Source of the DNA: Erysipelotrichia bacterium
GTDB lineage: Bacteria; Bacillota_I; Bacilli_A; Erysipelotrichales; Erysipelotrichaceae
Reading direction: 5' to 3'
NCBI GenBank assembly: GCA_030525245.1
Contig: JAUNFB010000005.1
Span: 26,452 to 64,460, forward strand
Length of the DNA stretch: 38,009 nt
Positions 1 through 18,459 of the stretch are shown here, one piece after another. The stretch's first letter is position 1, and every line of letters starts with the position of its first letter. Under the pieces are notes generated by a model, which had not been told where the DNA came from, did no database searches, and saw only the letters and a program-made list of their open reading frames with translations. The translations under genes and the position numbers were made by a program.

Positions 1-1241
1 CCGAAGGCAATACCATAAGAAATACTGTAACACAGACCCATAAAGATGCCGGCAAAGAAAGCCGGAATGGCTTCTGCCAAATCGTCCCAATCAATTTCTT
101 TAAATGCTGAAAGCATCATCACACCGACAACGACCAATGCCGGAGCAGTAGCAGCCATCGGGATAGCGGAAATAATCGGTGCCGCAAAAGCACTCAAGCC
201 AAATAACAATGCTACAACACAGCTTGTCAAACCGGTTTTGCCACCTACACCGATGCCGGCAGCACTCTCCACGAAAGTAGTCGTGTTGCTTGTACCGAAA
301 ATTGCTCCGACAGAGGTTGCGATACTGTCCGCAAACAAAGCCTTATCCATTTTAGACTTAAATCCGTTAGAATCTTGCATAGCTTTTTCATCTTCAGCCG
401 AGAATATACCGCTCTTTCTTCCTGTACCGATAAATGTTCCCAATGTATCAAAAGTATCCGATAATGAGAAAGACAGAATCGTAATAAATACTAAAGGAAG
501 TTTAGCAGGATCATTGAACAAAGAAACAATTCCTTCACTTGTAAAGATAACACCGAATGTTGTCGGCAATTCTTTACAAGCATCAACGAAGCTTACCGAA
601 CTGCTGATAGAAGTTACACCGAAAGGAATGCCTACTAAAGTAGCTACCAAAATACCGATTAAAATTGCTCCTTTGACTTTCAAAAGTACCAAAACTACCG
701 TTACCAATAAACCGATAATAAAGACAAATAATGTCGGTTGATTAAATGTCGCAATTGACGGAACACCGGAAGAGAAATTGATAAAGCCCACATTCAATAA
801 TCCCAAATAAGCCACAAATACACCGATACCGCCACCGATAGCGTTCTGTAAACTTTGCGGAATTGATTTAACAATGTGTTTTCTCAATTTAGTTACCGTA
901 ATAACAATATTGATAACTCCGCATAAAAATACCATTGATAATGCTTGTTGCCAAGTAAAACCCAAAGTAAAACATACGGTGTAAACAAAGAAAGCATTCA
1001 AGCCCATTCCCGGAGCCTGAGCATAAGGTACATTGGCAACTAACCCCATTACCAAAGTCCCGATAATTGAAGCAATGATAGTTGCTAAAAAGACTGCTCC
1101 CCATTCCATTCCTGACTGAGATAATAATGATGGATTAACCGCAATAATATAAGCCATCGCAAAGAAAGTGGTCAATCCGGCCATTACTTCCGTCGAAAAA
1201 GTCGTTTTATTCTCTTTCAACTTAAAAAACTTTTCGAACAT
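1..1241 (-). CDS. NCS2/AzgA-type purine (hypoxanthine/guanine) permease, C-terminus cut by window edge
   Basis: This is a multi-spanning membrane permease predicted to import guanine or hypoxanthine by proton symport. The reading frame is open from the ATG at 1241 to the left edge, giving about 413 residues without the C-terminus. The start is fixed by an AGGAGGAAC ribosome site at 1251-1259. The N-terminus reads MFEKFFKLKEN and is followed by the AzgA/PbuG-like segment AGLTTFFAMAYII. Other family marks are APGMGLNAFF, DTFDTLGT and ESAAGIGVGGKTGLT, which are typical of the adenine/guanine/hypoxanthine branch of NCS2. A guanine-type purine riboswitch lies directly upstream, which supports the substrate class independently. 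Guanine versus hypoxanthine cannot be told apart from this sequence. Confidence 0.93.
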   Translation of the reverse strand, partial: MFEKFFKLKENKTTFSTEVMAGLTTFFAMAYIIAVNPSLLSQSGMEWGAVFLATIIASIIGTLVMGLVANVPYAQAPGMGLNAFFVYTVCFTLGFTWQQALSMVFLCGVINIVITVTKLRKHIVKSIPQSLQNAIGGGIGVFVAYLGLLNVGFINFSSGVPSIATFNQPTLFVFIIGLLVTVVLVLLKVKGAILIGILVATLVGIPFGVTSISSSVSFVDACKELPTTFGVIFTSEGIVSLFNDPAKLPLVFITILSFSLSDTFDTLGTFIGTGRKSGIFSAEDEKAMQDSNGFKSKMDKALFADSIATSVGAIFGTSNTTTFVESAAGIGVGGKTGLTSCVVALLFGLSAFAAPIISAIPMAATAPALVVVGVMMLSAFKEIDWDDLAEAIPAFFAGIFMGLCYSISYGIAF

Positions 1242-1310
1242 TATATATGTTCCTCCTATTTCTAGTAATTCTATCGCCTCAGACAGAACCACTAAAAAAA
1301 GCAGATTCCA

Positions 1311-1376
1311 TCGTAGTCTTGATAATTTACGGTTTCAAGGTAGAGACTTTCGCACCATATTAGCGAGATTATACGA
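1311..1376 (-). promoter_or_regulatory. Purine riboswitch aptamer, guanine type
   Basis: The minus strand matches the purine aptamer core. P1 is formed by TCGTA (1376-1372) and TACGA (1315-1311). In between are the conserved TATAATCTCG, the AGTCTCTACC segment and the L3 loop ACCGTAAAT. The junction that reads the ligand is GACTACG. The C in GAC aligns with C74 of the xpt guanine aptamer, where adenine aptamers have U, so guanine or hypoxanthine is the predicted ligand. A T7 tract follows at 1300-1294, but I could not draw a convincing terminator stem, so the expression platform is unresolved. It lies 70 nt upstream of the permease start. Confidence 0.93.
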
Positions 1377-1391
1377 ATGAATTACTTTAAG

Positions 1392-1419
1392 AGTATAACA
1401 CATAATATTTTATCAACAA
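1392..1419 (-). promoter_or_regulatory. Putative promoter for the riboswitch-permease transcript
   Basis: On the minus strand a TTGTTG box (1419-1414) and a TATACT box (1397-1392) are separated by 16 nt. They lie just upstream of the riboswitch aptamer, as expected for its sigma-A promoter. The assignment rests on motif and spacing only. Confidence 0.5.
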
Positions 1420-1468
1420 GATGATAACGTTTTCCCAAAAGAAAGAATTTACACTGTTCTCAAGCAAG

Positions 1469-1497
1469 TAGAAAATATCAAATATTTTTCCTATAAT
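1469..1497 (+). promoter_or_regulatory. Putative promoter for the glycosyltransferase unit
   Basis: A TAGAAA box (1469-1474) and a perfect TATAAT (1492-1497) are separated by 17 nt. Transcription would start only about 10-15 nt before the coding sequence. It is divergent from the permease promoter. Confidence 0.55.
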
Positions 1498-1516
1498 AGT
1501 AAGTGTGAGGTTATTT

Positions 1517-2959
1517 ATGAGCAAAAAATTAAATGTATGTTTACTTAACGATTCCTTCCCACCGATAATAGACGGCGTTGCCAATGCCGTAGTCAACTAC
1601 AGTAAAATAATTCAAAAATATTACGGTAATGTAATTGTTGCCACACCGGAATATCCTAATGTAAAAGATAATTATGATTTTCAAGTTTTAAGATATCCGA
1701 GTGTAGACACAACAAAAATGGTCGGTTATCGAGCTGGTTTACCTTTTGATTTAAACTATCTGAATAAATTCAACAATGAAAATACCGATATTTTACACAG
1801 CCATTGTCCGGTAGCTTCAACATTTTTAGCCCGAATATTAAGAGATAAAATCCATAAACCGATTGTCTTCACTTATCACACCAAATTCGATATCGACATC
1901 GCCCGAGCAGTAAATTCTAAATTGATTCAGGAAGCCGCAATAAAATTGCTGATAGAAAATATTGAAGCCTGCGATGATATTTGGGTAGTATCTCAAGGAG
2001 CCGGAGAAAACTTGAAATCTTTGGGTTTCAAAGGTGAGTATACCGTCATGCATAACGGCGTCGATTTTACCAAAGGAAAATCTTCTTCCGAAGATATCGA
2101 GGCTATAAAGAAAAAATACGATTTACCTAATGATCTGCCGATTTATCTTTTTGTCGGTCGAATGATGTGGTATAAAGGATTAAAAATTATCATTGATGCT
2201 CTAAGACAAAAGAAAAATGCCAATCAAGATTTTCGAATGCTCTTTGTCGGTGACGGCGGTGATATTAAAGAAGTACAACAATATGTGATCGATCAGGATT
2301 TAACTGATAAATGCATTTTTGCCGGTGCTGTTTCAGACAGAAAAATTCTCAAAGACATCTTTTCTTCCTGCGATGTTTTCTTGTTTCCTTCCACTTTTGA
2401 TACTAACGGTATTGTTGTAAGAGAGGCCGCCGCAGCCGGTTTAGGAACAATTTTAATTAAAGGAAGTTGTGCTGCCGAAGACACGATTGATAATCAAAAT
2501 GTTATTCAAATAGAAGAGAATGCCGACAGCTTAGCAAAAGTACTAATTCAAAACAATAGTAATGTCAACTTCTATCATCAAATAGGAGAACATGCACAAC
2601 AACAATTATATTTATCTTGGGAAGATGCTGTTAAAAAAGCGGTTGAAAGATATCAAGAAATATTAAAAAATTACCATTATGAAGAAAAAGGTCGAAAATC
2701 AATGGATTTACAAGATAATTTCTTTGCGATGTGGGCTCAATTGGCTAACGGATTAGAAAAAGCACAGGAAAATCGTCTATTGTTTGAAATCAAATATAAC
2801 GAACAGCTAAAAAAAGTCGAAAGCAATCCTTTTAATCAGAAGTTAAATAATTTTATCGAAGAACAACGACAAAAATCGCTCGACAGCTTGAATAAATTCA
2901 ATGCCAATAAAGAAGAATTAAGGAAGTTAATCTCCGATTACTTCGATCACTATCTATAG
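1517..2959 (+). CDS. GT4-family glycosyltransferase
   Basis: This is a GT-B fold glycosyltransferase of family GT4, predicted to transfer a sugar from a nucleotide sugar to an unknown acceptor, possibly a glycolipid or wall glycan. I chose the ATG at 1517 because GTGAGG lies 6 nt before it; an in-frame GTG at 1505 overlaps that ribosome site. The N-terminal domain has DSFPPIIDGVANAV, typical of GT4 enzymes acting on lipid acceptors, and HSHCPVASTFLAR. The C-terminal nucleotide-sugar domain has LFVGRMMWYKGL and the EX7E-like region DTNGIVVREAAAAG. An extra 80-90 residue tail, charged and helical, follows the catalytic core and may be a coiled coil or membrane-association element. The dehydrogenase gene follows after 9 nt. 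Donor and acceptor are unknown. Confidence 0.85.
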   Translation: MSKKLNVCLLNDSFPPIIDGVANAVVNYSKIIQKYYGNVIVATPEYPNVKDNYDFQVLRYPSVDTTKMVGYRAGLPFDLNYLNKFNNENTDILHSHCPVASTFLARILRDKIHKPIVFTYHTKFDIDIARAVNSKLIQEAAIKLLIENIEACDDIWVVSQGAGENLKSLGFKGEYTVMHNGVDFTKGKSSSEDIEAIKKKYDLPNDLPIYLFVGRMMWYKGLKIIIDALRQKKNANQDFRMLFVGDGGDIKEVQQYVIDQDLTDKCIFAGAVSDRKILKDIFSSCDVFLFPSTFDTNGIVVREAAAAGLGTILIKGSCAAEDTIDNQNVIQIEENADSLAKVLIQNNSNVNFYHQIGEHAQQQLYLSWEDAVKKAVERYQEILKNYHYEEKGRKSMDLQDNFFAMWAQLANGLEKAQENRLLFEIKYNEQLKKVESNPFNQKLNNFIEEQRQKSLDSLNKFNANKEELRKLISDYFDHYL

Positions 2960-2968
2960 AGAAAACTT

Positions 2969-4177
2969 ATGAATAAACTTAAAAAAATATATTGCCGAAT
3001 ATATCAACAAATATTTCGGATCATATTACCGCTTATGCCTTACCGGCAACCGAAAATATTAAATTCCATGGAACAAATACCGACAGCCATACAGGCAGGC
3101 AATTGTCACAATTGCCTGCTGGTTACCGGCAAAACTTCCGTCAAATTAGGTTTAACCGACAAATTAGCACAGATACTGAAAGAAAAAGATATCGCCTGTG
3201 TAATCTACGATCAAACCGTTCCCAATCCGACAACCGCAAATGTTATCCAAGCAAAAGATCTCTATCAACAAAAAAAGTGTGACTGTATCATCGGCTTAGG
3301 TGGCGGTTCAGCCATGGATTGTGCCAAAGCAGTCGGAGCCATGGTTGTTCAACCGCATAAAACTCTTAATCGGATGCAAGGCATCTTGAAAGTACATAAA
3401 TCATTACCTCTGTTAATTGCCATACCGACAACTGCCGGTACCGGCAGTGAAACAACTGTAGCCTCTGTTATCGTTGACAGTGATACCAGACATAAATACG
3501 CGATAAATGATTTTTGTTTAATTCCGCAATATGCTGTTTTAGACCCGAAAATGACATTGAGCTTGCCACCGAAACTTACTTCCACAACCGGTTTAGATGC
3601 TTTAACTCATGCTGTTGAAGCCTATATCGGTCAATCAACGACCGCCTATACAAGAAAAGAAGCAGAAAGTGCAGTCAAATTGATTTTTGAAAATCTTCCC
3701 AAGGCTTATCAAAACGGCGATGATATCGCCGCAAGAAAAAACTTGTTATTGGCTTCCTACCAAGCCGGTTGTGCATTTACCCGCTCTTATGTCGGATATG
3801 TCCATGCTATCGCCCATTCACTCGGCGGTAAATATGACATCTCCCACGGTTTAGCTAATGCTGTCATTCTCCCCTATGTATTAGAGGCTTACGGCAATAC
3901 CTGCCAAAAGCAATTAGCTCAATTAGCTGTCATTTGTCAGATGTGTCCGCAAAATACACCTCAAAAGCAAGCACAACAAATATTTCTACAAAACTTAAAT
4001 AATCTGAACGCTCAATTAAATATTCCGCATAAAATAAAAGAATTAAAAGCGGAAGATATCCCTTATTTAGCTAGACAGGCAGATAAAGAGGCCAATCCTC
4101 TTTATCCGGTACCTTTACTGTTGGATAATAAGGAATTAGAAAAAATATATCACCGATTATTAGAAAAAGAATGCTGA
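2969..4177 (+). CDS. Iron-containing alcohol dehydrogenase
   Basis: This is a 402-residue member of the group III metal-dependent alcohol dehydrogenases, which reduce aldehydes or ketones with NAD(P)H, or the reverse. The dinucleotide-binding loop GLGGGSAMDCAK is at about 109-120 and IPTTAGTGSE at 152-161. The metal ligands expected from FucO are present as D210 and H214 (GLDALTHAVEAY), H279 (VHAIAH) and H293 (SHGLANA). The N-terminus includes a short hydrophobic stretch before the usual LMPYRQP start of the family fold. The gene follows the glycosyltransferase by 9 nt and is the last gene before a strong terminator, so the two are probably cotranscribed. The substrate cannot be deduced, and no pathway link to the glycosyltransferase is evident. 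Confidence 0.92.
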   Translation: MNKLKKIYCRIYQQIFRIILPLMPYRQPKILNSMEQIPTAIQAGNCHNCLLVTGKTSVKLGLTDKLAQILKEKDIACVIYDQTVPNPTTANVIQAKDLYQQKKCDCIIGLGGGSAMDCAKAVGAMVVQPHKTLNRMQGILKVHKSLPLLIAIPTTAGTGSETTVASVIVDSDTRHKYAINDFCLIPQYAVLDPKMTLSLPPKLTSTTGLDALTHAVEAYIGQSTTAYTRKEAESAVKLIFENLPKAYQNGDDIAARKNLLLASYQAGCAFTRSYVGYVHAIAHSLGGKYDISHGLANAVILPYVLEAYGNTCQKQLAQLAVICQMCPQNTPQKQAQQIFLQNLNNLNAQLNIPHKIKELKAEDIPYLARQADKEANPLYPVPLLLDNKELEKIYHRLLEKEC

Positions 4178-4218
4178 CGAGTCTGCTGAAATTTCAGTAG
4201 ACTCGTTTATTTACTTTT
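4177..4218 (+). terminator. Rho-independent terminator after the alcohol dehydrogenase
   Basis: The stem ACGAGTCT-x-CTGAAA pairs with TTTCAG-x-AGACTCGT (4177-4206), and a T-rich stretch follows. It begins at the last base of the stop codon. Confidence 0.85.
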
Positions 4219-4345
4219 CCTGCTTTCGGTATTCCGTTTTATCTTGCGTATAACTTTTTCCCGAAATGATCTGTTTCTATAAAATCGTTATAACCACCTT
4301 CATCATTACTTTCAGCATTTTTGATACTGCTCTATTTCCAAAAAT

Positions 4346-4371
4346 AAAATCGATACATATGTATCGATTTT
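4346..4371 (-). terminator. Terminator of the metG-DUF362 operon (26-bp perfect palindrome)
   Basis: A perfect 26-bp inverted repeat centred on ACATATGT lies 13 nt beyond the DUF362 stop. On the minus strand the hairpin runs into TTTTATTTTT, as expected for an intrinsic terminator. Because it is symmetric, it may also stop readthrough from the plus strand. Confidence 0.8.
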
Positions 4372-4384
4372 ACTCTATTAAGTA

Positions 4385-5263
4385 TTATTGCAATTCAATT
4401 AATTCGTATTGACGACTTCCGACATTATGCTTTGCGGCAGCCTCTAATGTATGCAAACCATTTCTGGTTTCAATTCTTTCCACAAAATGATCTCTTCCCG
4501 GATCTTTACTGCTGTATATCAAATCCACACAAGCTTGATCGATTGCTACGGGATCGTCGGAAGCTAAAATACCGATGTCTTTCATACAAGGATCTTCGGC
4601 AATTGCGCAGCAATCACAATCGACAGATAAATTTGCCATAACATTAATATAGGCAATATTTCCATGGAAATATTTTACTACACTGCCGGCAGCATCGGCC
4701 ATTGCTTCTAAAAAATCATCCTGCGGTGTATTTAATGCCCAACATTTATCCGGATCAGTAGTTTTACCGGCAGAATGAATATAAGCCTTACCGGCTGATG
4801 ACGCACACCCGATTGACAATTGTTTCAACGCACCGCCAAAGCCACCCATCGGATGACCTTTGAAATGAGACAATACTAACATCGAATCATATTTCACAAT
4901 ATCTTTTCCTACATAATTTTTATCCAATTGCCATCCGTTTTCAATGGACAACTGCAAATCAGGTCCACTGTGATCCAATAAGTCGACATTGAAATACTCA
5001 CTCCATCCATGATCTTTCAGCAACTTGATGTGTTTTTCCGAAGTGTTTCTAGCTCCGCCATAAGCGGTGTTACACTCAATTACAGTCCCATTAAAATACT
5101 CAATCGTCGGTTTAAAAAATTGAGGATGTAAAAAATTTTGGTTTCCCGCTTCACCCGAATGAACTTTAACCGCAATCCTGCCGTTTAAATTGTTTTTAAC
5201 CAATTCTGCCATCTGTAAAACTTTCTCGGCACTAATTTCTTTACTGAAATAAACTTTACTCAT
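4385..5263 (-). CDS. DUF362-domain protein without a ferredoxin module
   Basis: This is a 292-residue member of the DUF362 family, whose biochemical role is not established. Recognisable segments are GRIAVKVHSGE near the N-terminus, LVLSHFKGHPMGGFGGALKQLSIGC in the middle (as LSHFKGHPMGGFGG then ALKQLSIGC), and DCDCCAIAEDPCMKDIGILAS near the C-terminus. Longer relatives carry a 4Fe-4S ferredoxin domain. No CxxCxxCxxxC cluster is present here, so this is the short form, although CDCC could still bind metal. The ATG at 5263 is preferred over the TTG at 5266 because GGAGG lies 7 nt upstream of it. The start overlaps the HAD stop by one base (TGATG), which implies translational coupling as the last gene of the operon. 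Confidence 0.8.
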   Translation of the reverse strand: MSKVYFSKEISAEKVLQMAELVKNNLNGRIAVKVHSGEAGNQNFLHPQFFKPTIEYFNGTVIECNTAYGGARNTSEKHIKLLKDHGWSEYFNVDLLDHSGPDLQLSIENGWQLDKNYVGKDIVKYDSMLVLSHFKGHPMGGFGGALKQLSIGCASSAGKAYIHSAGKTTDPDKCWALNTPQDDFLEAMADAAGSVVKYFHGNIAYINVMANLSVDCDCCAIAEDPCMKDIGILASDDPVAIDQACVDLIYSSKDPGRDHFVERIETRNGLHTLEAAAKHNVGSRQYELIELQ

Positions 5264-5886
5264 CAAAAATCCTCCTCAAGCAATTCCTCTAAATTATCTA
5301 TATACTCATCAGCTAATGACTGATCAATATTATACCGTTGTTCTCTTTTAGCAATTACTTTAACCATCGCCGCCTTAGCCGCCATTAAACCATTTGTGCT
5401 GTCTTCTACAACCACACACTCATCACTTTTCACCTTTAACAATTGCATAGCTTGCAAATATACCTCAGGATTCGGTTTTGCGGGCAGTTTACTGTCTGCA
5501 TCGACAACAACATCAAAAATATTTTCCCAATGCAATTGAGCAAATACTTGCTTCAATTTTTCTTTATCACTGGCCGTAACCAAAGCTAAACGATATTTCT
5601 TATGCAACTGCTTTAGAACACTTGTAGCCTTAGGCATCTCCAACAAGGAATAATCAATATTATCATATGCCCGATGCTGATATTGCAACAACAATTGTTC
5701 CGTTTTATCAAAATCAGGAAATAATTGCGGCAAGATATTATTCAGTTTTTTTCCTGCCAACTTCTGTATTAATTGATCATCAACCGTAAATCCGTACTCT
5801 TCCAACAATCTTTTCTTAATGGAAATCGTTCGATATTCACTGTCGATAAGCACGCCGTCCAAATCAAATAATATCGCTTTTATCAT
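5263..5886 (-). CDS. HAD-superfamily phosphatase, beta-phosphoglucomutase-like
   Basis: This 207-residue haloacid-dehalogenase hydrolase probably dephosphorylates a small phosphorylated metabolite. Motif I, DLDGVLIDSE, is at about residues 8-17, with both aspartates and an all-helical cap following. Motif II falls in ALVTASD, and motif III/IV in the KPNPEVYLQA and VEDSTNGLMAAKAA region. The pattern is that of the beta-phosphoglucomutase/phosphatase subgroup, but mutase and phosphatase activity cannot be separated by sequence. The start overlaps the stop of the peptidase gene by ATGA, and the stop overlaps the DUF362 start. It is therefore the fourth gene of a tightly coupled operon that begins with metG. 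Confidence 0.88.
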   Translation of the reverse strand: MIKAILFDLDGVLIDSEYRTISIKKRLLEEYGFTVDDQLIQKLAGKKLNNILPQLFPDFDKTEQLLLQYQHRAYDNIDYSLLEMPKATSVLKQLHKKYRLALVTASDKEKLKQVFAQLHWENIFDVVVDADSKLPAKPNPEVYLQAMQLLKVKSDECVVVEDSTNGLMAAKAAMVKVIAKREQRYNIDQSLADEYIDNLEELLEEDF

Positions 5887-6905
5887 TGTTTTAATTCAAA
5901 TTCAATTTGTGCTCTATCCTCTTGTAGAGTAAAATGAGCAACCGACCCGGCAATTAATGTCCAACTTGGAGGAATATGGCCGAAATCACAGCCATATACA
6001 ATCGGAATATTTAAATCTGCTAAATTGTCTTTTAAGGCATCAACCAATGTGTATCCGAAACAATCATCACTGTGGACAGCCCGCCCATATAAAATTCCTT
6101 TGCAGTATTTAAACCACCCGGCTTGTCTTAATTGCCACAAAGCTCTGCTCTGAGCTAAAACATTCAGATCGCAGGCCTCCAAAAACCAAATGAAACCATC
6201 ATCCTGATATTTATCGATGAATTTCTCCACTTGTCCGTATTTAGTGCCACATAAAGAAACCAATATGTCCAAGCATCCGCCGACAAGTCTTCCCTTGATA
6301 TCAACATCTTTTCCGTCTAAAGTTTTGTATTCAACTTTTGCCTCCAAATTATAACCACATAAGGCTTTACCTTCCTGATGCGACAAATCATTGATTTCAT
6401 ATTGTTCATAAGAAGAAAATTCTTTTCGTTTACCGGTAATCAAATCATAACATTCCTGCAAGGACTTATCCCAATTAGCCATACCGAAACTTCCGAAATT
6501 ACTACCGTAAATAGCAGCAGTATCGGTCAATATAGGCAAAGTAAATACCAAATTGGTATTATCGGAATAACCCATAAAATACTTTGGCTTAGCATACTTT
6601 AAAGTATCAAAATCAATATAAGTAAGTATCGACATCATCAACTCTCCTCCGGCAACCGAAATGATAAAATCCGTATCCAAATCCAAATACATCTGCATAA
6701 ACTGTTCAGCTCTGACTTTACTCGGAGCACTTGCCGCTTTATCAATACCATAAAGACATTCACTCTGCTTGATCTTATAGCCCAAGTTAGTGAATTTTTT
6801 ACAAGCATGTTCAAATCTTTCTTGATATGGATAACCGCTGACGCCAAAAGAAGGAGCGACAAGACCGATCGTGTCCTGCTTCTTCAAAAATGAAGCGTAG
6901 CGCAT
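5883..6905 (-). CDS. S66-family serine peptidase (LD-carboxypeptidase / MccF-like)
   Basis: This is a cytoplasmic serine carboxypeptidase of family S66. The catalytic Ser114 is in FMGYSDNTNL, Glu243 in WFLEACDL and His310 in FGHIPPSW, matching the Ser-Glu-His triad of the family. Length (340 residues) and the N-terminal segment TIGLVAPSFGVSG are typical. S66 has two known roles: LdcA trims L,D-bonds in recycled muropeptides, and MccF cleaves the amide bond of microcin C-type aminoacyl nucleotides that poison aminoacyl-tRNA synthetases. The gene sits 1 nt after gltX and two genes after metG, a setting that makes the MccF-like role worth considering. The sequence alone does not decide between them. 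Confidence 0.87.
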   Translation of the reverse strand: MRYASFLKKQDTIGLVAPSFGVSGYPYQERFEHACKKFTNLGYKIKQSECLYGIDKAASAPSKVRAEQFMQMYLDLDTDFIISVAGGELMMSILTYIDFDTLKYAKPKYFMGYSDNTNLVFTLPILTDTAAIYGSNFGSFGMANWDKSLQECYDLITGKRKEFSSYEQYEINDLSHQEGKALCGYNLEAKVEYKTLDGKDVDIKGRLVGGCLDILVSLCGTKYGQVEKFIDKYQDDGFIWFLEACDLNVLAQSRALWQLRQAGWFKYCKGILYGRAVHSDDCFGYTLVDALKDNLADLNIPIVYGCDFGHIPPSWTLIAGSVAHFTLQEDRAQIEFELKQ

Positions 6906-6906
6906 C

Positions 6907-8550
6907 TTAGTCCAACTCCTTTAAAACCTTTTCGATTCTGGTGATTGTTTCTTGTTTACCCAATATCTGCATAATCGTCCATAAATCAGGCGTATTTTTT
7001 TGTCCCGTTGCAGCAATACGGACAATTTCCGATACATCGGCAATACTGCCCTTATATCCGTCAGGATTTTCTTTATAAGCCTTCATATCAGTCTGATAAT
7101 CATTATCTGAAGCAATTTTCTTTAGCTTTTCAAACCAAGCATTATTATCATCATTGTAATCATAACTTGCCAAGAATGCCGTTAAAATATTTTTAACTTC
7201 CTGTTTATCTTGCTTAAACTCATCAATCAGTTTGTGATGATAATACAAATCAATGGACTGTAAAATCTGTGAAGCATAATCATAATCTTTTCTTCTCTTT
7301 TTAAGATTTAAACCCATACCTAAAGTCAAAATTTTATCTAGATATTCCTCGTTACCGAAATATAAAGCATAATCATCTTGATGATAAGTCTGGACAAAAG
7401 TACGCAAATAATCTTTCATCTGTTCCAAAGTAAATTTAGACAAATAAGTTTTAGATATATTGTTCAATTTATCCAAATCAAACAATGCTCCCGACTGTCC
7501 CATTTTATCCAAAGAGAACTTAAATTCGTTTAAATCCGTATCCGGATTTTTCAAATACCATTGTTCAAAATTCCAGTTCAATAAAGTCATCAAATATAAT
7601 TTAACTGCGTAAGGATGATAACCCAATTGACGATAATAATCCAAAGACAATTCCGGATCCTTACGCTTAGAAAGCTTCCTCTTTGTTCCGGTTTCATCTA
7701 TTTTCATCAAAACCGTTGTATGAGCATATTTAAGTTGTGGGAATCCCAACATCTTGAACAACTCCAAATGTACCGGCAAAGTACCTAACCATTCCTCACC
7801 GCGCATAACAATCGTAGTATGCATCAATGTATCATCAATAGCGTGAGCAAAATGATATGTAGGAATACCGTCGGCTTTCAATAATACAACATCTTGGTCA
7901 TTTTCGTGAACCGTAATATCACCTTTAATCTCATCATGGAAAATATGTTGTACTTCGGCATTACCGGTCGAACGCATTCTGATGACATAACTATCTCCGT
8001 TTTCCAAATGCTTTTTAACTTCTTCCAAAGTTAAATTACGACATTTAGCCCATTTACCGTAATAACCGGTTGCTTCGTTTAAATCACTCTGTTGTTGACG
8101 CAATTTATTTAAATCTTCTTCCGAACAGAAACAAGGATAAGCCTTGCCCTCAGCAACCAACTTTTTGGCGAAAGCATGATAAATTTCAGCTCTCTGTCTC
8201 TGATAATACGGCCCGTAATTGCCCTCCGGTTGATGGTTGGCTCCCTCATCAAAATATATTTGGAAATAGTCAAAACAAGAAATGACAGTTTCTACCGCAC
8301 CTTCGACTTTTCTCTTTAAATCCGTATCCTCAATACGCAAATAGAAAACACCGTTGCTTTGGTGAGCCACTCTTTCATCGGCCAATGCACCATATAAATT
8401 ACCCAAATGAATAAACCCGGTCGGTGAAGGAGCCATTCGCAATACCTCTGCTCCCTTAGGCAAATTTCTTTGCGGGTATTTATCCATATAGTATTGCCAA
8501 TCGTGTTCCAAATCAGGAAATAACAAATTCGCTAATTGTTGATAATCCAT
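6907..8550 (-). CDS. gltX: Glutamyl-tRNA synthetase (non-canonical, 547 residues)
   Basis: This class I synthetase charges tRNA-Glu (or also tRNA-Gln) with glutamate. The HIGH-type motif is HLGN at residues 48-51, inside MAPSPTGFIHLGN. The KMSKS-type loop is KLSKR at 292-296. The glutamate site GVFYLRIEDTD and the zinc-site-like CFC (140-142) with C170 are present. An N-terminal stretch of about 35 residues precedes the catalytic fold, and the total length exceeds the usual bacterial enzyme of about 480. The ATG at 8550 is chosen because GGGAGGAC lies just upstream; an upstream ATG at 8589 would overlap the metG 3' end. It lies 10 nt after metG, and the S66 peptidase follows after 1 nt. His-to-Asn at the last HIGH position is tolerated in some class I enzymes, so activity is likely. 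Confidence 0.92.
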   Translation of the reverse strand: MDYQQLANLLFPDLEHDWQYYMDKYPQRNLPKGAEVLRMAPSPTGFIHLGNLYGALADERVAHQSNGVFYLRIEDTDLKRKVEGAVETVISCFDYFQIYFDEGANHQPEGNYGPYYQRQRAEIYHAFAKKLVAEGKAYPCFCSEEDLNKLRQQQSDLNEATGYYGKWAKCRNLTLEEVKKHLENGDSYVIRMRSTGNAEVQHIFHDEIKGDITVHENDQDVVLLKADGIPTYHFAHAIDDTLMHTTIVMRGEEWLGTLPVHLELFKMLGFPQLKYAHTTVLMKIDETGTKRKLSKRKDPELSLDYYRQLGYHPYAVKLYLMTLLNWNFEQWYLKNPDTDLNEFKFSLDKMGQSGALFDLDKLNNISKTYLSKFTLEQMKDYLRTFVQTYHQDDYALYFGNEEYLDKILTLGMGLNLKKRRKDYDYASQILQSIDLYYHHKLIDEFKQDKQEVKNILTAFLASYDYNDDNNAWFEKLKKIASDNDYQTDMKAYKENPDGYKGSIADVSEIVRIAATGQKNTPDLWTIMQILGKQETITRIEKVLKELD

Positions 8551-8560
8551 AAGTCCTCCC

Positions 8561-10543
8561 TTACATAAATTGACTTGGATGTTTAACATAGAAGTCTTCT
8601 TTTTCAGCCAATTGTTTTAAGCTGTGATTCTGCTTATCATCATCAATAAAATAATATAAATCCTCAAAAATATAATCCCAATTAAAGAATTTTTCTTTGT
8701 TCACTCTCAAATACTCAACAGTTTTTTCACATCCCGACGGCATAATCGGATGAGATAATACTGTTGCGACTCTCAACATGTAGAAGCAATCAATTAATGT
8801 TTGTTTGCGTAATTGTTCATCATTATTCTTGTCGGCAGCATTGGAATTCTTTGCCCAATACTTATTCGCCTGACGAATATATGTATCCAAAACATTATAT
8901 ATTTGATGCAGTTCAAAGCGATACATCATCTGTTCATAATCCAAAATTGCTTTTTGAGCAATTTGTTTGACCTCCGGACTTACTTCACCATACGGAAGTA
9001 TACCGTCATAATATTTCTGCGTCGAATAGAAACAACTGCGGGCAAGTCTGTTTAAAACATTGGTAAATAAATTACCTTGAGCCAATACCGGATCGGCTTC
9101 ATTCTCTTTAGCGTTCGGATTCAATACCTTCGGCATAAAACTTACCGATTTATTGGCTAACGCCAAAGAAAGGAAATGCGCCCGTAATTGTTCGGCAGTA
9201 TAGTACTGCAACAAATCTTCTGCCATCGGCGGTTTAACTGCCGATGAACTGCTGGCTTTTTTATCTAAGAACAAAATATGATGGTTGGCAACCAAAGTCG
9301 GCAACTGCAATTGTCCTTTTGCCGGATGAATGGACAAATCATCTTTTCCCTGCTGAGCCATAAACATCGGCATCTGTGCAACACCATAGAAATAAATATT
9401 ATCCTGTCCGATGAATTGATATACTTCTGCTTGCGGATCGCACCAATAATCTTTCCATTTATTTTCATCAAAACCTTTTCTCTTCAAATAAGCCTTAGTG
9501 AAAGAAATAGGAGCCCACAAGCTTTCCGGCCATACCCAAACCGTCAATCCTTGCTCACCTTCAAGAGAAGGAGCTTTAACACCCCATTCGATATTACCGG
9601 TAAGTCTTAAAGGCACCAATGTTTTCCCTGTACGATATCTTATACCGTTTTCGGTCAAGACAGTGCAAGCATTTTCTCTGTCCTTTAAAGTTTTAAATTC
9701 AACAGTAAAACTGTCTTTAACATTTTCCAAAGATGAACAAATGTGTTCAGGAAGTTCATCTTTTATTTCCTTATAAGTTTCAATGCCTTCCTTACGAATA
9801 TAGATAATCGGTTTAGCCAATGATTCCTTCATTGTTTCCCAAACGATCCTGCGCACATTCGGTTTAGTCGCGATATCATCAACATATTTCTCCAACAAAT
9901 CGTAACATTCCGTCAACTTGAAATACCAGTTGACAACATCACGCATTTCCGGAGTTTCTCCGCTCAATGTACTCTTCGGATTGATTAAATCCTCCGGCAT
10001 ATACTGATGACCCAATTCGCACTCATCGGCATAACCCTTCTCCGATTGGCAACCCTTAATCGGACATTTACCGACAACTTGCCGTCCGTTCAAAAAACAC
10101 TTAGCTTTCGGATCATAGAACTGTTTGGTAACCATTTTCTCCAACCAACCGTTTTTATATAAAGTAGTGATAAACTCATTGGTTTCTTCCTGATGAATTT
10201 CCTTTGTATCTCCCAATCCGCTGGCACCGAAAATATCCAAAGATATTTCATAGTCTTCCAAAGTATTCTTTTGCTGCAAATGATTAGCCATTACATAATC
10301 TTCAATAGTACCTGTAAAACCGGCTTCACATTTCTTGCGATAACCCTCCGCAATAGGTGAACCGTAACAATCCGTACCGCTAACAAAAATAACATTATCT
10401 TTTCCGATTCTGTCTCTTAAAAAACGAGCATAAACATCTGCATGAACAAACATACCGCCGACATGACCGAAATGCAGTGTCTTATTACCGTAAGGCATAC
10501 CGCCGGTTACAATTGCCCTTTTAGGAAAATTTGGACGCGCCAT
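8561..10543 (-). CDS. metG: Methionyl-tRNA synthetase, divergent, lacking a KMSKS motif
   Basis: This class I synthetase is expected to charge tRNA-Met. HIGH is represented by HFGH (24-27) after GGMPYGNKTL. VSGTDCYGSPI and the metal-knuckle region with C160, C165 and C175 follow the MetRS pattern, as do INPKSTLSGE, YVWFDAP-like VWVWPESLWAP and YQFIGQDNI. The KMSKS position near residue 425-437 instead reads FLDKKASSSSAVKPP, so the catalytic loop is replaced by a serine-rich sequence. An insertion of about 60 residues (roughly 242-305) separates the connective-peptide region from NIEWGV. There is no C-terminal EMAP/tRNA-binding domain. GGAGG lies 7 nt before the ATG. It is the first gene of a five-gene operon. 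It may be a real but modified MetRS or a MetRS-derived paralogue. Confidence 0.85.
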   Translation of the reverse strand: MARPNFPKRAIVTGGMPYGNKTLHFGHVGGMFVHADVYARFLRDRIGKDNVIFVSGTDCYGSPIAEGYRKKCEAGFTGTIEDYVMANHLQQKNTLEDYEISLDIFGASGLGDTKEIHQEETNEFITTLYKNGWLEKMVTKQFYDPKAKCFLNGRQVVGKCPIKGCQSEKGYADECELGHQYMPEDLINPKSTLSGETPEMRDVVNWYFKLTECYDLLEKYVDDIATKPNVRRIVWETMKESLAKPIIYIRKEGIETYKEIKDELPEHICSSLENVKDSFTVEFKTLKDRENACTVLTENGIRYRTGKTLVPLRLTGNIEWGVKAPSLEGEQGLTVWVWPESLWAPISFTKAYLKRKGFDENKWKDYWCDPQAEVYQFIGQDNIYFYGVAQMPMFMAQQGKDDLSIHPAKGQLQLPTLVANHHILFLDKKASSSSAVKPPMAEDLLQYYTAEQLRAHFLSLALANKSVSFMPKVLNPNAKENEADPVLAQGNLFTNVLNRLARSCFYSTQKYYDGILPYGEVSPEVKQIAQKAILDYEQMMYRFELHQIYNVLDTYIRQANKYWAKNSNAADKNNDEQLRKQTLIDCFYMLRVATVLSHPIMPSGCEKTVEYLRVNKEKFFNWDYIFEDLYYFIDDDKQNHSLKQLAEKEDFYVKHPSQFM

Positions 10544-15090: not shown

Positions 15091-18000
15091 TTACTCAAAA
15101 TGTTTCTTTAAGCAGAAAAGAATAGCAGCTAAAGAAACAGAAATAACACTTACAGAACAGATTAACCAAATATTCCCGTCACCGGTATCCGGCGCAACAG
15201 GAGAATCAATAGCATAGTTTACTATCATTAACGGATCGGATGAAGTTCCCGTTTCTGTATTTTCCCCGAATGCAACAGTATATTCCCCGGTCAGAGAATT
15301 CTGAGTAATTGTTATCGTGATCGGTTCAGCATTAATCTTGTATCCTTCCGGAGCTTTTGTTTCTTTGAGAATGTAAGTTCCTTCAATTAACTCATCAAAA
15401 TGAATCATTCCTTGCTCATCGCTGACAGCAGTGAAACTGTAATTGTTCTCTTTACATTCTAATGTAAATTCAGCACCGGCAAGCAGCTTACCGTTATTTC
15501 CATCCGTTTTTTGCAGATAGAAACCGGCAAAAGGTATTCTGGCCCACACACTGTTAGATTCCTTTTCTTTACGCATTTGGTCGGCACTATAACCGAAAGA
15601 GTTGACTGCTTCTACATAAGTCATTGTACCCGTCTCTTGATCCGTATCAATCTTTTCTTCTAAGAAAGTTCTATCATATTCGGAAGCGGCTTTGACCGGA
15701 ATACGCACTTGAAAACTTGATTGTCCGGCTAAAACCGTATTTTTATCAGCTACCAACTTAAAAGCCGTAACCTTTGCCAAATCATCGATTGTTGTTGTCC
15801 ATATATCGGCATTTACCATATCATGCATTGATTCTTTATAAACCTCATCACTGGTAGTATAGAAAACCGTATATCCCGGTGCATTAATATAATCACGCAA
15901 ATAAACTCTGAATTCCGAATTTCGCGATGAGTTGCCAAAAATGTCCATATCCGAAATTTGCGGCAGAACATCGTAAACAGTTAAACCGGTATATTTAACA
16001 TTTGTTTCATTAGTTACCTTTAACAAATAATCAAAGTCTGTTCCCGCTTTAATTGAAAGACCATGCTTATTCCAGTGCTCTGATCCGGCCGGAGCAATAA
16101 ATTTCTCCGCAAAAACCGACTCCGAGGTAATAATCACAGCATCGGAGAAACTATAAGCAACTTTATCATCTGTTCTGCCGTTATTGTTCAAATCATAAAT
16201 ATCTTCCGTTGAACCGACAGATTCCTGATATTCATCCAAATTATCCCCTACTACATATACTTCATTGCGAATAGTTCCCGGATGAGCATCTTCATCAATT
16301 CTCACACCAAAATAGATATCAGTAGGCGGTGACTTTAATGCTTTTTGTAAATTTTCCGCATTGAGATGGAAAATAACGGCTGTACGACCGGAATTACGAT
16401 AGTTTTCAATAATTTCCGGCTGATAATTCTCTTTGCCGTCTAGTATCGAACCGACTGAATTGGCTTGTTGAATAAGGTAAATCTTTTCATAAGTAACTCC
16501 CTCCGGTAAAAGATCAACGATTCGAATATCTTGATATTCTTTTACATCAGATTCCAACAAAGTTCCGCTCAATTGAATAAGATAGAAATACACATCACCG
16601 ACATGATTTCCACCGCCGCCCCAAAGTTTTTGAGTCTCATTATTACAAAGAGTCAATTTATTAACCGCCAGTTTCTCTACACTCGGAAACATATCATAAT
16701 AATGTCCGGCTTTCAAATATTGATATATCGTTTTATTATCCTTTGTATAGGAGGTAACAAGACGAGAAATATTTTGATATGTTATCTTATCGGTATTATT
16801 CGGAACATGTGTATTTTTTGGATCTCGGTAAACAGTATAAGCGGTAAGATTTACTTTTTCGTCATAATAAAGTTTATAATCATCATGGAAAATAATGTCG
16901 TAACCCACACATTCTTTATCGACATCAAAAGTTACAATAAAATTACCATGATCATCAGCATTTGTTACATAGTAATTTTGAGTTGTCCCATCAGCGTAGT
17001 AAGCCACAACTCGATCTATTACATCAGCATAAGTTTGAGCATCTCTAAATTTAGAAAGACTCGTATTAAATTGCAGACTGACAAATTTAAGAGCCTCATC
17101 CATTCCTTCCAAAATTACTTTATCATCTTCAACAATTTTGCGATCTTGGATAATAATATGTTGTAAAGGCTGTATTTTATTATTCCCTAAATATATTCCC
17201 CAAGGATAAGGGTTGGTTTTATAAGACTCAACATCATAGATATTACCCTTTGTGGCAGCTTTAGTGAATATGCCATTTGTCGACAAATCATTAGTCATTC
17301 GAAAGCGCAAAGCATCTTCTGCCGTAGGATGGGTTTCCCCTTCGGATTCATTGCTTGGAACAGCTGTAAGCTGAACTTTGTTGTCCAAATCAGCAAACAA
17401 ATTACCATCATTATCTCTATTAAACGATAAACCCGGGAAACGCAGATGCAATTCATCGGCATATATTTGCAGAAGAATGTCCGCAGAATTCCTACCGTAA
17501 TAAGTTTTTGATACAGTCGTATTATCGCTGCTTAATTGCCATCCGGGATTCTTATCGGCATCGAATATCGCAACACGTTTTACACCATCTTTATCAATAT
17601 AATTAGGTAAAACATCCGTCAATGTTACCTGACAGGCATCACGAAAATCGTTTAATGAACAATTGACATTCGTATAGTTATTGACTACAAACGCAAAATC
17701 AACATAAGTCAAATCATCCAAATACGGATTACCGTTTTCCTCTAACGGAGTAACTACCACTTCCGCTCCATCGCGAGAGAATGCAGCCAAATTATTGGAA
17801 TTAACAAATTTTTCGATTCCCCACTGTTTATACAACGGTTTATAAATATTAGGTGTTGTAGACTCTGTGCTACAAGAGGTTGAAGCCGTTACCGGCAATT
17901 GATAATTATCGGGAACCACATCATCCGAAAAACTGAGCATAAACGGTAAAACCAATGTTTGTGTTTTGTCATATACATCGAAATGAATGCTGATACTGTA

Positions 18001-18459
18001 ATTATTCTCATCTTCCGTAACCGGTAAAATCTCATATTTGGTATTCGAAGAATCTATATTGAACTTAGGTATACTGACAGAATCCTTCTCCACATACTGC
18101 TTCGGCATCGACAGAGTAACCGTTATATCAGTCAAATCATGGTCCAAATCACTCGGCTCCAAGCGAATATATCCGGACATTGTACTGTGTGTATAATAAT
18201 GCACTCCATTAGGATATTCGCTTTGATTTTTTTCATCACCATAAAGCAAGGAAATATTCAATATACCCGGTTGTACATCGGAATTATTCTTTTTAACTGT
18301 TGATGATGCTTCAAAACTACTATCATATTTATTTTCTTTCATGAAAGCAACATTAGCAAAAGCACAATTCATAAAAAATGCAATTGCGACAAAAAGACAA
18401 ACAAACATTTTAAATGGATTGAACTCATTTACTTTTCTATCTTTTTTGTTCTTTTCCAT
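15091..18459 (-). CDS. Large cell-wall-anchored surface protein with Cna-B domain and APDTG sorting signal
   Basis: This 1122-residue secreted protein is probably an adhesin or pilin-like stalk. A basic N-terminus followed by a hydrophobic stretch (about residues 18-37) forms a signal peptide. The long middle is beta-rich, with repeated phrases such as VTLTDVLP, IVDLLPEGV and YDVLPQ that recall DUF11/isopeptide-forming fimbrial domains. Residues about 978-1084 are a Cna-B (prealbumin-like) domain: Lys984 in LQKTD, Glu1033 in LKETKAPEGY and Asn1081 in IVNYA fit an intramolecular isopeptide bond. The C-terminus is a sorting signal: APDTG (1089-1093), a hydrophobic helix and KKHFE. The motif departs from LPXTG, and no sortase gene is in the window. 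AAGGA lies 7 nt before the ATG. The ligand is unknown. Confidence 0.87.
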   Translation of the reverse strand: MEKNKKDRKVNEFNPFKMFVCLFVAIAFFMNCAFANVAFMKENKYDSSFEASSTVKKNNSDVQPGILNISLLYGDEKNQSEYPNGVHYYTHSTMSGYIRLEPSDLDHDLTDITVTLSMPKQYVEKDSVSIPKFNIDSSNTKYEILPVTEDENNYSISIHFDVYDKTQTLVLPFMLSFSDDVVPDNYQLPVTASTSCSTESTTPNIYKPLYKQWGIEKFVNSNNLAAFSRDGAEVVVTPLEENGNPYLDDLTYVDFAFVVNNYTNVNCSLNDFRDACQVTLTDVLPNYIDKDGVKRVAIFDADKNPGWQLSSDNTTVSKTYYGRNSADILLQIYADELHLRFPGLSFNRDNDGNLFADLDNKVQLTAVPSNESEGETHPTAEDALRFRMTNDLSTNGIFTKAATKGNIYDVESYKTNPYPWGIYLGNNKIQPLQHIIIQDRKIVEDDKVILEGMDEALKFVSLQFNTSLSKFRDAQTYADVIDRVVAYYADGTTQNYYVTNADDHGNFIVTFDVDKECVGYDIIFHDDYKLYYDEKVNLTAYTVYRDPKNTHVPNNTDKITYQNISRLVTSYTKDNKTIYQYLKAGHYYDMFPSVEKLAVNKLTLCNNETQKLWGGGGNHVGDVYFYLIQLSGTLLESDVKEYQDIRIVDLLPEGVTYEKIYLIQQANSVGSILDGKENYQPEIIENYRNSGRTAVIFHLNAENLQKALKSPPTDIYFGVRIDEDAHPGTIRNEVYVVGDNLDEYQESVGSTEDIYDLNNNGRTDDKVAYSFSDAVIITSESVFAEKFIAPAGSEHWNKHGLSIKAGTDFDYLLKVTNETNVKYTGLTVYDVLPQISDMDIFGNSSRNSEFRVYLRDYINAPGYTVFYTTSDEVYKESMHDMVNADIWTTTIDDLAKVTAFKLVADKNTVLAGQSSFQVRIPVKAASEYDRTFLEEKIDTDQETGTMTYVEAVNSFGYSADQMRKEKESNSVWARIPFAGFYLQKTDGNNGKLLAGAEFTLECKENNYSFTAVSDEQGMIHFDELIEGTYILKETKAPEGYKINAEPITITITQNSLTGEYTVAFGENTETGTSSDPLMIVNYAIDSPVAPDTGDGNIWLICSVSVISVSLAAILFCLKKHFE

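Follow-up and report, generated by a model that had tools for sequence, protein, structure and literature searches.

The window analysed here is a stretch of 38,009 nucleotides from contig JAUNFB010000005.1 of an Erysipelotrichia bacterium. At positions 8561-10543 it encodes a divergent class I aminoacyl-tRNA synthetase of 660 amino acids with the fold of methionyl-tRNA synthetase (MetRS), followed by gltX (all window features given here lie on the minus strand). We name this protein MetX and predict that it is quite probably a MetRS-derived glutaminyl-tRNA synthetase (GlnRS), which would make it a third route to Gln-tRNA. Its predicted fold, its motifs, their conservation across the family, the coexistence with metG, the linkage to gltX and the exclusion of GatB and GlnRS within the order were computed here. 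The reading frame and the HFGH motif, the counterpart of HIGH at residues 24-27 (10463-10474), are as given in the original prediction, which described a MetRS with the KMSKS loop replaced by a serine-rich sequence. Alignment with the MetRS of the same genome and of E. coli places K429-A430-S431-S432-S433 (9245-9259) at the position of KISKS or KMSKS, with the first lysine and the motif serine kept and serine in place of the second lysine. The enclosing loop, DKKASSSSAVKPP (residues D427 to P439; 9227-9265), is invariant at K429-S433 and P438-P439 in the alignment. The second lysine is thus indeed gone, but the loop is less extreme than first described and resembles the KMSSS of human tyrosyl-tRNA synthetase (TyrRS).

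The methionine pocket of MetX has been rebuilt. WVWPESLWAPISF (residues 336-348; 9500-9538), the equivalent of the Met-pocket strand and helix of MetRS (W253-Y260 region), is altered and nearly invariant in the alignment, and QFIGQDNIYFYG (residues 376-387; 9383-9418) covers the positions of I297 and H301. By sequence alignment only, L13, W253, Y260, I297 and H301 of the E. coli MetRS pocket correspond to M16, W338, F348, N382 and Y386 of MetX, and a three-residue SLW insertion follows just after the equivalent of W253-D255. Across the family alignment, the Met-pocket segments are an invariant but different set of residues. An insertion specific to the MetX family, some 60-70 residues long (about 242-313; 9605-9820), is likewise conserved, which bears out the roughly 60 additional residues (242-305) reported earlier. 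The alignment also shows that MetX lacks the Trbp111-like tRNA-binding domain found at the C-terminus of the canonical MetRS of this genome.

MetX belongs to the MetRS-fold family PF09334, its sole family match, and scores 252 and 202 bits against NCBIfam MetRS models with cut-offs of 587 and 336 bits. A PF09334 search of the window's genome recovered, separately from MetX, a canonical metG of 642 amino acids with KISKS, the second gene that had been proposed as a check, and each of 28 further genomes with MetX that were tested has a canonical metG as well. These results rule out MetX as the only MetRS of its genome. The separate metG, together with a score so far below the 587-bit cut-off, argues against the identity of methionyl-tRNA synthetase assigned at first. 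PLSDB and RefSeq give orthologues no name more specific than 'class I tRNA ligase family protein'.

GTDB genomes contain at least 520 candidate stretches coding for relatives of MetX. KASSS is present in all 103 full-length aligned sequences (102 orthologues and the window protein), as are HFGH, PESLWAP and DNIYFYG, and KASSS recurs in a distant homologue of the actinomycetote Collinsella at 47% identity. The altered motif is therefore neither chance nor a sequencing error, and the earlier view that this is no decayed copy stands. MetX reading frames are intact at 60-80% identity over unrelated assemblies. In a maximum-likelihood tree, a very long stem leads to the MetX sequences, which form a single group (100/100); the tree has few outgroups and does not give the position of MetX among MetRS types. 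The Erysipelotrichaceae copies nest within Clostridia copies, which suggests that MetX was transferred from Clostridia into Erysipelotrichaceae. A phage origin was also considered, and the search gave ordinary phage MetRS matches only.

The strongest indication of function comes from the distribution of MetX. We scored 295 genomes of the Erysipelotrichaceae order for MetX (found in 37), GatB (186) and GlnRS (75). GatB and GlnRS occur together in 18 genomes, while MetX overlaps with neither in any genome. Both GatB and GlnRS are missing from 37/37 MetX-positive and 15/258 MetX-negative genomes (Fisher p = 2.7e-35, kinship ignored). The same pattern holds within a single genus (g3), where some congeners have MetX and others GlnRS or GatB; GlnRS and GatB co-occur in some members, but MetX is never found with either. 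Exactly one protein of the GluRS/GlnRS family PF00749 was found in each of the 25 MetX-positive genomes of the order tested, so these genomes are without GlnRS. Since GatCAB also serves Asn, asparaginyl-tRNA synthetase (AsnRS) was checked: 35 of the 37 MetX genomes of the order have it, and the two that do not are 71-72% complete. Asn is therefore not their unmet need, and MetX as a replacement of AsnRS is ruled out. In the assembly of the window's own genome, a frameshift or stop interrupts asnS (G000:C124:16564-17857, minus strand), a gene that is intact in congeners. Because MetX is found in close relatives only where the known Gln-loading routes are missing, it is probably glutamine-loading. 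The original prediction had raised a changed function as one option, and the canonical metG elsewhere, the rebuilt pocket and the phyletic pattern support this option and point to glutamine.

A congener of the window genome (G001; 99% complete, about 1.42 Mb read in stretches) provides an inventory. It encodes synthetases of 19 specificities: Ala, Arg, Asn, Asp, Cys, Glu, Gly (identified by motif only), His, Ile, Leu, Lys, Met, Phe, Pro, Ser, Thr, Trp, Tyr and Val. No match to GlnRS, GatA or GatB was obtained in these stretches, and E. coli GlnRS as a query finds nothing. Of the synthetase-like proteins found in G001, MetX alone is left unassigned. Both tRNA-Gln UUG and tRNA-Gln CUG are present, with U1-A72 and G73. 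The tRNA-Asn has G1-C72, not the U1-A72 that is regarded as necessary if Asn is to be supplied through GatCAB (PMC4206432). In the metG genes of MetX genomes, CAA and CAG occur where Gln is conserved; they are therefore still Gln codons, and codon reassignment is not supported.

MetX is repeatedly linked to gltX. In the window, gltX (6907-8589; probable true start at 8550, MDYQQL...) is the only PF00749 gene detected in the genome, and the junction from MetX reads TAA, GGGAGG, ATG, with about 10 nucleotides from stop to start, in line with the operon proposed earlier. Among 80 MetX loci fetched for neighbourhood counts, 34 have a gltX homologue within three genes, mostly directly adjacent and co-oriented. 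The order is gltX-MetX in Clostridia, including Monoglobus pectinilyticus, and MetX-gltX in Erysipelotrichaceae, and two gltX lineages are involved. In genus g3, MetX is not adjacent to gltX. One gltX per genome was found in all MetX genomes tested for it. In Ruminococcus albus 7, a gltX-like gene and MetX (WP_013483668) are separated by one small open reading frame; the pair lies on pRUMAL02 (131-4468), a 353-kb plasmid typed as conjugative and a possible vehicle for MetX-gltX transfer. No tRNA gene is consistently linked to MetX in the neighbourhoods scanned.

Downstream of gltX in the same run lies an S66 peptidase gene (LD-carboxypeptidase/MccF-like by family search; 5883-6905), found directly after gltX in 8/80 MetX loci, all of Erysipelotrichaceae type. 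MccF-type enzymes cleave aminoacyl nucleotides, and a role of the peptidase in adenylate clean-up or immunity is conceivable. It is followed by a HAD-family hydrolase (5263-5886), conserved in some relatives, and a DUF362 protein (4385-5266), which one other locus has and which is probably incidental. Elsewhere in the window, a purine riboswitch aptamer at 1294-1396 scores 78.4 bits, over the gathering score, and 15091-18459 encodes a predicted surface protein of 1122 amino acids, read from its sequence as having SpaA/prealbumin-like repeats and a C-terminal hydrophobic anchor.

The AlphaFold2 model of MetX (pLDDT, a per-residue confidence score, 90.6) has a MetRS fold and keeps a C-terminal helical, anticodon-domain-like region. 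The top Foldseek matches are MetRS, the best being that of P. abyssi (1rqg; TM, a structural similarity score, 0.73/0.79). Further down appears PyrN bound to glutamyl-sulfamoyl-adenosine (9l8v), which as a sequence match to MetX is weak (E 5e-7). The MetRS-like domain of PyrN joins glutamate to N6-hydroxylysine, probably via glutamyl-AMP (PMC8664883, PMC11705231), and shows by analogy that the MetRS fold is able to switch substrate.

From the phyletic pattern and the pocket alignment we infer the substrate, tRNA and chemistry of MetX. It would activate L-glutamine, whose side chain is nearly as long as that of methionine, with ATP and charge tRNA-Gln directly, replacing both the GluRS-derived GlnRS and the pair of glutamyl-tRNA synthetase (GluRS) and GatCAB. 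In the alignment, the changes of I297 to N382 and H301 to Y386, together with the SLWAP(I/V)S segment, would remake the hydrophobic Met pocket to hold an amide, the glutamine amide taking the place of the methionine thioether in a pocket of similar length. Potassium ions (K+) have a role at the KMSSS loop of human cytosolic TyrRS. This enzyme has serine at the second lysine and is still active (PMC2813244, PMC7613620). As KASSS matches KMSSS, MetX could tolerate the missing second lysine and still activate its substrate, and the two loops may work alike. The partner GluRS would discriminate against tRNA-Gln. The MetX gene appears to have originated in Clostridia and to have entered Erysipelotrichaceae later, with GatCAB lost there afterwards.

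Other functions have to be weighed against these data. A second MetRS, such as a stress- or inhibitor-resistant isoform, with Gln-tRNA supplied by something undetected, would agree with the fold, with MetRS as the best profile matches and with the retained equivalents of N391 and R395. We consider it highly improbable, given the invariant exchange of the pocket segments, the scores far below the MetRS cut-offs and a canonical metG that is always present; it would also leave the strict exclusion with GatB and GlnRS unexplained. MetX could alternatively be an amino-acid adenylating enzyme outside translation, similar to hydrazine synthetases, with an indirect link to the loss of GatB and GlnRS. 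MetRS-like enzymes that act independently of tRNA on Glu, Gly, Ser, Ala or Tyr do exist (PMC8664883), and PyrN is a structural neighbour. This is still very unlikely, as the 80 loci show no cupin or N-hydroxylase family recurring next to MetX, whose partner is instead gltX, and as the anticodon-domain-like region is retained, the sequence match to PyrN is weak and MetX complements the missing routes phyletically.

The repeated adjacency to gltX, the sole GluRS gene detected, would fit a role of MetX as a helper of GluRS in specificity or amidation, through which GluRS could make Gln-tRNA, in place of an independent GlnRS. The GluRS of genus g3 is of the ordinary type (68-72% identity with that of a GatB-positive congener) and is encoded apart from MetX. 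MetX itself retains HFGH, KASSS and the complete catalytic core of class I, and the family search turned up no amidotransferase domain in the protein. There is accordingly only a very slim chance that MetX acts in this way. A decaying paralogue or an assembly artefact, for which just the altered signature motif would speak, is virtually impossible and refuted by conservation, as seen in more than 500 relatives, the uniform KASSS of the alignment and the intact reading frames.

Several observations weigh against MetX as a GlnRS or limit the evidence for it. Its N495 and R499 match the MetRS anticodon residues N391 and R395, although the anticodon of tRNA-Gln differs. In the 14 sources scanned, the search for a T-box leader near MetX came up empty, which leaves no specifier codon as a guide to the amino acid. 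The MetX, GatB and GlnRS counts of the order depend on E-value thresholds and on the incompleteness of metagenome-assembled genomes. Fifteen genomes (G022, G061, G062, G072, G104 and ten others) lack MetX, GatB and GlnRS alike; they are possibly incomplete, or another Gln-tRNA route may have gone undetected in the order. For G022 and G061, a first-look search yielded no MetX, GatB or AsnRS candidates, and these two genomes may be atypical. In Clostridia, GatB is kept in 15/16 MetX-bearing genomes tested, and no bacterium was known by 2014 to have both Gln-tRNA routes (PMC4206432). Eight of the 16 have GatB without AsnRS, seven have both, one (G644) has AsnRS only and none is without both. GatCAB is thus needed for Asn in 8 of the 15 GatB-positive genomes, where AsnRS is missing, and not in the other 7. 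A GlnRS function of MetX in Clostridia is therefore compatible with the data and not forced by them. A second, weaker match to the asnS model lies beside gatB in three genomes (G639:C37, G654:C13, G656:C48) and is perhaps a non-discriminating aspartyl-tRNA synthetase for tRNA-dependent Asn synthesis.

On balance, we think it likely that a second GlnRS arose from MetRS by independent evolution, occurs widely in gut Clostridia, Erysipelotrichaceae and Collinsella as a third natural route, and moved between phyla with or next to gltX. In the open-access PMC literature, which was the scope of our search (subscription journals and preprints lay outside it), no report of a MetRS-type GlnRS was found. 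If true, MetX would represent a natural change of synthetase code assignment from Met to Gln, provide a function for a large family now known by a generic annotation, and explain how these gut bacteria live without GatCAB and GlnRS. MetX might also be an orthogonal enzyme for genetic-code work. In the plasmid collection, glnS is found on numerous E. coli plasmids with a size of about 90 kb (e.g., NZ_CP081308.1, NZ_CP058619.1).

Compared with known systems, MetX shares with MetRS the Rossmann fold, HFGH, a MetRS1-like connective peptide with Cys residues, the stem-contact and helical anticodon domains and the N391/R395 equivalents. It differs from MetRS, with which it coexists, in KASSS, the rebuilt pocket, the insertion of about 70 residues and the loss of both the W461 equivalent and the Trbp111-like domain. 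Hydrazine synthetases (PyrN, 9l8v; Spb40, Tri28) likewise repurpose the MetRS fold, for Glu in PyrN. Their MetRS-like domain is tRNA-independent and has a cupin partner, whereas MetX has no linked or fused cupin or lysine N-hydroxylase, the hallmark of these systems, among the recurrent neighbours examined. Human cytosolic TyrRS has the same exchange of the second lysine for serine, but is a class Ic enzyme specific for Tyr. The literature consulted describes only two routes to Gln-tRNA: GlnRS, an enzyme of GluRS origin, charges the tRNA directly, and GatCAB amidates Glu-tRNA-Gln. GatCAB with a non-discriminating GluRS yields the end product predicted for MetX, Gln-tRNA-Gln, by an indirect two-step route; the GatB-negative MetX genomes are without the amidotransferase, and the two systems are mutually exclusive in the order. 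Canonical GlnRS (TIGR00440, PF00749) has no sequence relation to MetX (PF09334) and is mutually exclusive with it in the order tested, but the two share the same predicted reaction and would answer the same unmet genomic need.
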